A stretch of DNA of 64,000 nt, from positions 1,922,001-1,986,000 of the forward strand of contig NZ_AP018052.1 of NCBI RefSeq assembly GCF_002356355.1. The letters are read 5' to 3'. The translations under genes and the position numbers were made by a program. The notes under the pieces were generated by a model that searched no databases, was not told the DNA's origin, and saw only the letters and a program-made list of their open reading frames with translations. Within the stretch, counting starts at the first letter, position 1. The number at the start of each line of letters is the position of its first letter. The stretch is from Thiohalobacter thiocyanaticus (lineage in GTDB: Bacteria; Pseudomonadota; Gammaproteobacteria; Thiohalobacterales; Thiohalobacteraceae). Shown piece after piece: positions 752-51,536 of the stretch.

Positions 752-850
752 GTTGTTAATGGGTAATCCATATTTTATGCTGAAGATGGTGAACACCCAT
801 TAAAACCCAACCCCTCTTCAAGGTCTGTATATTTACACAACAGGAAACAG

Positions 851-1243
851 ATGATGCCGAAGCAGATTAGAAGGGAGGGCGGTAGCGTCAATTATCTTTT
901 GCTATTTGTGATCATCCTGATGGCAGTAGTCATTGGCAACCTGGCATCGGACTGGATCGAGCTGAAGTGGGTTGAACATCAGACGGCGCAGGCAATATCT
1001 GCGTTCAATGATGAAATTAATGATGCAGCACAGGAGCAGCGCCAGCGCAACCTCCGTCTTCAACACCAGACGCAGGAAGAAAGAAAACGGAGTCCTACAG
1101 GGGTGAAGTTGGAAAGGGTATGCACCGATTGGATGCGGGCGGACGAGGAATACGATTCATATACCACGCAGACTGGTCGCGAGAAGCACTGCACAAACTA
1201 TCGCAAGTTTATTCAATCGGGCATAATCCCGCGATCTAAGTGA
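851..1243 (+). CDS. Small single-pass membrane protein, unknown
   Basis: 130 aa. AGGAAAC lies just upstream of the paired ATGATG start. After a short basic N-terminus, residues about 14-32 (YLLLFVIILMAVVIGNLA) form a transmembrane segment, followed by a Gln/Glu/Arg-rich stretch (about 45-80) likely to be an amphipathic helix or coiled coil, and a C-terminal part with two cysteines (VCTDWM and HCTNY). I do not recognise a family. It precedes the diguanylate cyclase by 22 bp and could be co-transcribed with it. Confidence 0.6.
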   Translation: MMPKQIRREGGSVNYLLLFVIILMAVVIGNLASDWIELKWVEHQTAQAISAFNDEINDAAQEQRQRNLRLQHQTQEERKRSPTGVKLERVCTDWMRADEEYDSYTTQTGREKHCTNYRKFIQSGIIPRSK

Positions 1244-50244: not shown

Positions 50245-50650
50245 CGTCATTGCGAGGAGCGAAGCGACGTGGCAATCTCCTTCAGCCACAAATTTCCTCG
50301 AAAAGATCCCGCCATACCGGGTTTCCATCCTCTATCAACGCAACTTTCGCTTTTCTCGGCCTGCCCTTCAGCTGCTTCTCTCTTTCAATGGCCAGGTCCA
50401 TTGTTTCAAAAAGCTCAAACCAGATCAGTCGCGTTACATTGTATTTTGCAGTAAATCCTCTGACTGCTTTGCTTTTATGTTCCCAGATGCGCTTTGGAAG
50501 ATTGCTGGTGACGCCAATATACAGCGTGCCATTCGGCCGGTTGCATAGGATATAAACAGCAGGTTGCTTTTCCATTTCGTCATCCTTGACGATGATGGTT
50601 CGGCTGTATCTTTGGGAGATTGCCACGTCGCTGCGCTCCTCGCAATGACG
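50245..50650. mobile_element. 406-bp element with 35-bp inverted ends carrying a GIY-YIG gene
   Basis: The left end (50245-50279) and right end (50616-50650) are inverted copies with one mismatch in 35; both start CGTCATTGCGAGGAGCG and finish GGCAATCTC. The GIY-YIG gene fills the interior and its stop codon is 2 bp inside the left end. The same ends bound gene-less elements at 2763-2864, 32420-32567 and, minimally, 10499-10528. No target duplication is obvious. Confidence 0.7.
50282..50575 (-). CDS. Single-domain GIY-YIG nuclease-like protein
   Basis: 97 aa. The GIY-YIG motif is VYILC...LYIGVTS (Tyr8, Tyr19-Gly21), followed by the catalytic Arg29 in NLPKRIWEH, and a C-terminal glutamate region. 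This is the UPF0213/YhbQ-like class of stand-alone domains, whose role is not established. The ATG at 50575 gives MEKQPAVYIL; a longer frame upstream runs into the inverted repeat and is unlikely. Because it is enclosed by repeat ends shared with empty elements, it may be the nuclease that moves them. Confidence 0.88.
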   Translation of the reverse strand: MEKQPAVYILCNRPNGTLYIGVTSNLPKRIWEHKSKAVRGFTAKYNVTRLIWFELFETMDLAIEREKQLKGRPRKAKVALIEDGNPVWRDLFEEICG

Positions 50651-50689
50651 TGGAACTTTTAACGTCCGCTGTGTGCCCGTTAGCACACT

Positions 50690-51358
50690 TTATTCTGTCT
50701 GTTTAATCACTTTTGGAGAATCCTCACGGGTGTAATAACCAACCGGATAGCCTTCCCAATCCCCCGCCTGCGCCGTTGCTAATACAGTCTTCAATTCCTC
50801 GACCCCTGTTGACGGGTCCAACCACTGCCCCCATGTCGACGGCGACAATATCGCCGGCATCCGCGCATGCACCTCGCCGACAACGGCATTGGCCTCGACC
50901 GTGACTATCGCACAGGAGTCGACTCCCTCCCCTGCTTCGTCATGTGGCTCCCAGCGTCCCCACAGGCCCGCCATGAAGAAGGGCTCACCGTCTTTGCGGT
51001 GGAAGTAATACTGCGGCTTGCGCTTCTCCCCGGTGTCTCTGGGTTCATAGAAGCCGTCCGCCGCAATCAGGCAGCGGAAGTGGCGGAATGGAAACTGCCA
51101 CAGCCGGCTCGTCGCCAGGGTCTCCGCCTTGGCGTTGATGGTGGAGTATTTTGTCCTGGGTTCTTTCTCGAAGGGCGGGATGTAGGGCCAGTGCAGGGAG
51201 GTCAGCTCACGCTCACCAGTCGGATCCAGGTGACAGGCCAGGACGGACTGGCCCGGCAGGATATTGTAGCGAGGCGGGAGCGAGCCGACCTGGCAACGGG
51301 CCCGGGCAAGGGCGGCAAAGCGCTCAGGGGGCGTGATCCTGGCGAAGCGTCCACACAT
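50690..51358 (-). CDS. SRAP/HMCES-type abasic-site DNA-protein crosslinking protein (YedK family)
   Basis: 222 aa. The catalytic Cys2 is exposed after Met removal (MCGRFARITPPE). Other conserved residues are in PRYNILPGQSVLAC, TINAKAETLA, the ADGFYEP glutamate and VHARMPAIL histidine. It covalently traps abasic sites in single-stranded DNA. A LexA box lies about 90 bp upstream, consistent with the name SOS-response-associated peptidase. A likely -10 (TATGAT on the minus strand) lies between the box and the start. Confidence 0.94.
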   Translation of the reverse strand: MCGRFARITPPERFAALARARCQVGSLPPRYNILPGQSVLACHLDPTGERELTSLHWPYIPPFEKEPRTKYSTINAKAETLATSRLWQFPFRHFRCLIAADGFYEPRDTGEKRKPQYYFHRKDGEPFFMAGLWGRWEPHDEAGEGVDSCAIVTVEANAVVGEVHARMPAILSPSTWGQWLDPSTGVEELKTVLATAQAGDWEGYPVGYYTREDSPKVIKQTE

Positions 51359-51445
51359 ACCGTGTCATAACCATTTGATTCTTATATGTGTCCATCATAC
51401 CCAACCCGCGCCCCGCTGCCCAGGGATTTCATGCCCCCTGAATAA

Positions 51446-51461
51446 CTGTATATTCATACAG
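51446..51461 (-). promoter_or_regulatory. LexA (SOS) box
   Basis: CTGTATATTCATACAG fits the LexA consensus CTG-N10-CAG with the preferred TATATxxATA interior. It is upstream of the SRAP gene on the minus strand, and no plus-strand gene starts within 1.8 kb, so SRAP is the likely target. Confidence 0.85.
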
Positions 51462-51536
51462 TGTGTATCGCCATTCTATATTTTCACGAGGGCCGGGCGG
51501 CAGACAGGCGCCCCTGTGTATTAACAAAAGGATTGT

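Follow-up and report, generated by a model that had tools for sequence, protein, structure and literature searches.

The stretch of DNA analysed here (the window: 64,000 nucleotides at full length, with positions counted within the whole stretch unless marked as genomic) carries on its minus strand an intact gene for a 222-residue SRAP protein of the YedK/HMCES type, preceded by a LexA-box-like operator and by the remnant of a gene that points the other way (Table 1). YedK/HMCES proteins cap abasic sites in single-stranded DNA by means of a cross-link through Cys2. The window protein matches the SRAP profile (PF02586) above its cut-off and has the four hallmark residues of the family, with the active-site Cys2, Asn, Glu and His aligned to those of the YedK structure 2icu (3.4e-23). 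Its match to NCBIfam PRK09951 is below cut-off (90.9 of 349 bits). A gene with a GIY-YIG nuclease domain (7.1e-16) lies 3 bp directly downstream of the SRAP gene on the same strand.

Table 1. Features of the SRAP locus and places in the genome that match CTGTATAWATATACAG with at most three mismatches
Feature	Position	Strand	Basis or remark
GIY-YIG nuclease-domain gene	window 50282-50686	-	7.1e-16
SRAP (YedK/HMCES-type) gene, 222 aa, intact	window 50690-51358	-	PF02586, 1e-57
Predicted sigma-70-type SRAP promoter, TGGGCA-17-TATGAT	window 51394-51422	-	9 of 12 consensus bases; top-scoring in the window
Second divergent promoter candidate, ATTTCA-17-TATATT	window 51426-51454	+	-10 inside the box
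LexA-box-like operator, CTGTATATTCATACAG	window 51446-51461	CTGTATGAATATACAG in SRAP orientation (-)	motif match and kin at recA and lexA
Best divergent promoter candidate, TTCATA-18-TATATT	window 51453-51482	+	first hexamer (-35) inside the box
Divergent-gene remnant, GTG TGT ATC..., MCIAILYFHEG (11 codons)	window 51461-51493	+	full length in L005
ORF of 130 aa	window 851-1243	+	
CTGTATAWATATACAG place ahead of the 130-aa ORF	window 825-840		
CTGTATAWATATACAG places before two further SRAP copies	genome 1413415, 1454238		
CTGTATAWATATACAG place before recA	genome 2566786		
CTGTATAWATATACAG place before lexA	genome 2888265		
CTGTATAWATATACAG place 8 bp before a 114-aa ORF	genome 257141		
CTGTATAWATATACAG places inside ORFs	genome 1846248 and 1846252 (overlapping), 3232292		

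The box lies 87 bp from the SRAP ATG at 51358, has the CTG-N10-CAG dyad with an A+T-rich centre that is expected of a LexA operator, and its 6-bp arms (CTGTAT and ATACAG) form a perfect inverted repeat. The first-pass annotation had described a perfect palindrome about 90 bp before the SRAP start; this is accurate for the position and the arms, and not for the whole 16-mer, in which 12 of 16 bases equal their own reverse complement. The same genome encodes a cognate LexA whose recognition helix is almost that of E. coli LexA: the canonical LexA (locus L012) aligns with that of E. coli (E 2.8e-80) and differs from it once in the recognition-helix stretch FRSxNAAEEHLKALARKGVIE. The motif was also sought, as the same annotation had proposed, before recA and lexA, and was found at both. 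Two boxes lie upstream of lexA (CTGTACAAATACTCAG and CTGTATATAATCCCAG, each with one base of ACAG changed) and one upstream of recA (CTGGATAAACATCCAG, which reads CTGG/CCAG). Because the genome encodes an E. coli-type LexA and has boxes of this class at lexA and recA, the window box is very probably a genuine LexA-type operator, as the annotation had called it. By eye, the gene adjoining lexA at L012 resembles imuA.

Four SRAP matches are present in the genome, one of which (L047) has an in-frame TAA. Boxes of this kind precede three of the four, at 87 bp from the ATG in both the window and L005/L045, and at 74 bp in L044, where one arm is changed (CCGTAAAAATATACAG). The fourth copy (L047 1501-2220) has a different upstream region, in which a scan requiring CTG and CAG found no box. 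In a congener (G010) the SRAP gene has the box CTGGATAAATATACAG 83 bp before its ATG. The SRAP proteins of the four boxed loci (window, L005, L044 and G010) differ by 13 to 30%, and AATATACAG is an invariant run of nine columns in their aligned upstream DNA. The paralogues are related and do not count as independent trials. Comparison of the window with L005 alone gives no sign of added constraint, since the box (13/16) is as conserved as its surroundings (69/86), though CTGT and ACAG are untouched by the three differences. Since a box stands before three of four copies and before the congener's copy, direct LexA control of SRAP is likely. Within the family, which equals the order in our sample, SRAP is found in 3 of 11 genomes, namely the source genome (G000), the congener and G006, in which the match falls into three pieces and which the box scan left out. 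The copy at genomic position 1413505 (L044 1-1110) adjoins a repeat array that by eye resembles a CRISPR array.

Promoter candidates around the box were ranked by weight scoring. The TATGAT that had been noted between the box and the SRAP gene is present (51399-51394, minus strand), 17 nt downstream of the hexamer TGGGCA (51422-51417). In the window and in G010 (TTGGGC-17-TATATT) the best predicted SRAP promoter is separated from the box by 23 bp on the downstream side, and transcription from it would start about 67 bp from the box centre. The top-scoring SRAP promoter candidate in L005 and L044 instead places its -10 within the box, though its lead is small (6.05 versus 5.89 and 6.46 versus 6.26, respectively), and the equivalent of the window promoter ranks second or lower, with starts about 68 and 55 bp from the box centre. 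Conservation of TATGAT was rejected as proof of a promoter, the hexamer reading TACCAT in L005 and TATATT in L044 and G010. As the predicted window promoter is downstream of the box, simple blocking of it does not fit; occlusion of the SRAP promoter by LexA is possible, yet the window copy does not suggest it.

We consider it reasonably probable that the box is an operator for the canonical LexA and that DNA damage frees it, raising SRAP transcription. In the undamaged cell LexA would occupy the box; on damage, LexA would cleave itself under stimulation by RecA and leave the box, SRAP transcription would rise, and the product would cap abasic sites in single-stranded DNA through its Cys2 cross-link. 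The box also overlaps predicted divergent promoters; in the sister locus the gene that they face is a compact SRAP-like gene of full length. What is inferred is that LexA binds the box, that damage induces the gene, and which of the promoters is repressed. The damage-inducible control for which the first-pass annotation had seen direct sequence support in the box is favoured by the boxed copies in the genome and the congener; against it stand the place of the window promoter downstream of the box and the overlap of the box with the divergent promoters.

This geometry bears on another explanation, in which the box serves the divergent compact gene as its operator and, that gene being broken in the window, has become a relic beside a LexA-independent SRAP gene. 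The predicted divergent promoters do overlap the box, by the -35 of the best candidate and the -10 of the second candidate in the window, and it is the candidate with this second -10 position (TATATT in the box) that scores highest in L005 and G010. A divergent ORF of 138 aa in L005 has the first base of its GTG start on the final base of the box; the window sequence departs from that gene after MCIAILYFHEG. The 23 bp that separate the window SRAP promoter from the box point the same way, as does the E. coli uvrA/ssb region, where, in the portion of PMC9505508 that treats it, one box acts more directly on one of two divergent genes. Yet both arms of the window box are intact despite the reduction of the divergent gene to 11 codons, the box is kept in L044 though the divergent gene matches there as two separate pieces only, and it is kept in G010 though the divergent ORF lacks Cys2. 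A relic box with LexA-independent SRAP appears unlikely.

That the box is a chance A+T-rich palindrome without function is highly improbable. It is the sole site within one mismatch of CTGTATAWATATACAG in the genome (3,233,441 bases in one contig), boxes of its kind occupy similar positions ahead of three SRAP copies and of the congener's SRAP, and no site within two mismatches of the motif arose in 6 Mb simulated from the dinucleotide frequencies of the window. At up to three mismatches, CTGTATAWATATACAG gives 7 forward and 9 reverse matches in the genome, compared with 5 and 1 for the reversed pattern; the simulation predicts 2.7 sites per genome against these 16 strand hits, a model that understates chance because intergenic DNA is more A+T-rich. 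The matches fall at 10 distinct places, of which 3 precede SRAP copies, 1 precedes recA and 1 lexA. Within the window, 2 sites are within three mismatches of the 16-mer where 0.12 are expected, and 2 of 100 shuffles reach that number. What favours chance is that the genome shows no excess of CTGT-N8-ACAG alone (11 sites versus 17 for a control pattern) and that 44 of 100 window shuffles contain it at least once; this loose pattern alone is not informative. Searching for it with one mismatch was dropped as uninformative (675 sites versus 629 for the control). The expectation that a LexA regulon could be predicted from the box was weakly borne out. A widened motif with two mismatches allowed, tried for this purpose and rejected, gave 52 strand hits versus 38 for the control, and 18 of the 25 newly fetched sites lie inside ORFs on a rough ORF call.

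The second LexA-like box in the window, CTGTATATTTACACAA, stops 10 bp short of the ATG that opens the ORF at 851-1243. The 130-aa product of this ORF is hydrophobic over a stretch at its N terminus (by eye), lacks a significant match in Pfam (best 0.073), and is a candidate SOS-induced small membrane protein.

A second LexA-like gene adjoins a Y-family polymerase gene (locus L013). Upstream of it (L013 1420-1500) are GTTC-N7-GTTC and GAAC-N7-GAAC, which are unlike the box of the main LexA and have the form of the alphaproteobacterial SOS motif; 43 other loci of this genome, 130,792 bases in all, hold 6 such repeats. The genome perhaps has two LexA systems. The existence of this gene beside a polymerase gene leaves a very slim chance that its product, or another repressor, binds the window box in place of the canonical LexA, given its different upstream motif and the SRAP-type boxes at the canonical lexA and recA.

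Boxes of this type are rare before the SRAP genes sampled beyond this genus. SRAP was found in 110 of 339 sampled Gammaproteobacteria, and among 94 SRAP upstream regions of 250 bp, 4 contain a box matching at least 13 of 16 positions: three of this genus and one from another family (L104), in which the identical 16-mer lies 232 bp upstream of SRAP. At a threshold of at least 11 of 16, the count is 7 of 94. No box of at least 13 matches was found in control regions further upstream (0/92) or in gene bodies (0/94), and single-base shuffles gave 0.3 (at least 11) and 0.0 (at least 13) boxes per set. The scan covers boxes of one type and demands CTG and CAG, which is why it missed the L044 box. 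With strong boxes before 4 of the 94 sampled SRAP genes, LexA-box control of SRAP looks lineage-specific, and the rarity of such boxes hints that direct control by LexA is often absent from SRAP genes of Gammaproteobacteria. SRAP may also lie within an operon controlled from further upstream. A search of named genomes with the SRAP protein found three relatives at 35-36% identity, which were left out of the box scan, and a search of viral contigs found none. One gammaproteobacterial genome (G255; loci L175-L179) has seven SRAP matches, five of them nearly full length.

The gene that the box separates from SRAP belongs to an unnamed family of compact proteins, about 135 residues long, with members in 40 of 369 Gammaproteobacteria (among them G000), 5 plasmid records and 5 distinct viral contigs; no member was found in the phage records searched. 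On one viral contig (L188 5001-5420), the compact gene lies by eye between an ORF resembling a tail protein and one resembling an integrase. Compact proteins begin MCGG and end near VHERWPRI, compared with MCGR and IHDRMP in SRAP. Cys is at position 2 in 23/23 proteins of one alignment (A2), and 3 of 34 compact ORFs lack a Met-Cys start as called (L064, L066 and L088). The SRAP Asn is not kept, and the C-terminal His is absent in L005 and G010.

Profile comparison of the compact family with SRAP (hhalign) scores above 40 column shuffles both locally (26.75 versus at most 21.1, at a probability of only 16%) and globally (25.3 versus at most 5.3, at a probability of only 32%). Without the first 3-5 columns, the local score stays at 26.9 and the global score falls to about 12. 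No PF02586 match was found in four members scanned (one at E up to 1, three at E up to 10), nor any NCBIfam match, and PHROGs returned only a weak family of unknown function (0.0065). Searched against the PDB, the family profile matched four chains at E up to 10, and SRAP was not among them. Three were forms of beta-lactamase inhibitory protein II (best 4e-4) and the fourth was a photosystem chain (0.045); all were set aside as chance matches to a short repeat. A fold model built from four phage-contig proteins was unusable (pLDDT 48.1, pTM 0.40). Considering the lack of a Pfam call and of an SRAP in the PDB search, the failed fold model and the low hhalign probability, the family is described here as SRAP-like in pattern and is not called a member of SRAP.

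In 25 of 30 compact-gene loci, a relative of the L013 Y-family polymerase lies upstream on the same strand; the same 30 loci contain a LexA relative in 10 and SRAP in 2. L075 has the polymerase first, then the compact gene and then SRAP, and leaves space for a gene behind the polymerase; a Methylophaga plasmid carries lexA, DNA polymerase IV and the compact gene. In each of L078, L079 and L083 a box with 14 matches lies at the polymerase gene or immediately ahead of it, and a Pseudomonas plasmid (L065) has a box with 15 matches upstream of its compact gene. The polymerase-linked family is a candidate partner in translesion synthesis. A wider reading, which we put forward tentatively and hold to be somewhat less than an even prospect, is that the box marks a two-part module, in which the compact Met-Cys-Gly family would be a stripped-down SRAP that acts with translesion synthesis at abasic sites, one LexA operator serving both full and compact SRAP in this genus. 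The PDB profile search, which gave no SRAP, lowers our estimate of this reading.

A link between SRAP and the SOS response is already in print, and the window box is ordinary in kind and largely expected wiring. SRAP owes its name to SOS operons, and Cys2, Asn, Glu and His are given as the hallmarks of the family (PMC3765255); the term 'SOS box' is absent from the main text of that paper. In passages of PMC3978071, Acinetobacter A1S_2014 is induced after mitomycin C and listed with recA and umuDAb. Passages there and in PMC7273328 place it upstream of a umuC, and the latter report its activation by DdrR and UmuDAb. For E. coli yedK, a table entry in PMC7567609 names TreR, not LexA. No report of a LexA box at a SRAP gene was found in the open-licence literature searched, and a direct LexA operator before SRAP makes damage-inducible abasic-site protection testable.

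Compared with these SRAP neighbourhoods (PMC3765255) and with A1S_2014 (PMC3978071, PMC7273328), as described in the passages concerned, the window likewise ties SRAP to the damage response; those cases involve operon links or control by UmuDAb/DdrR, whereas here a LexA box lies directly before SRAP, with no polymerase gene beside it. With the E. coli-type boxes of lexA and recA, the window box shares the CTG-N10-CAG dyad, the A+T-rich centre, a damage gene downstream and a matching LexA, but it does not cover the best predicted SRAP promoter, which is downstream of it. A parallel in layout is the E. coli uvrA-ssb box (PMC9505508), likewise a single box between divergent genes, which covers the -35 of one gene and lies a long way from the other's coding region; in the window, by contrast, the divergent gene is a remnant.
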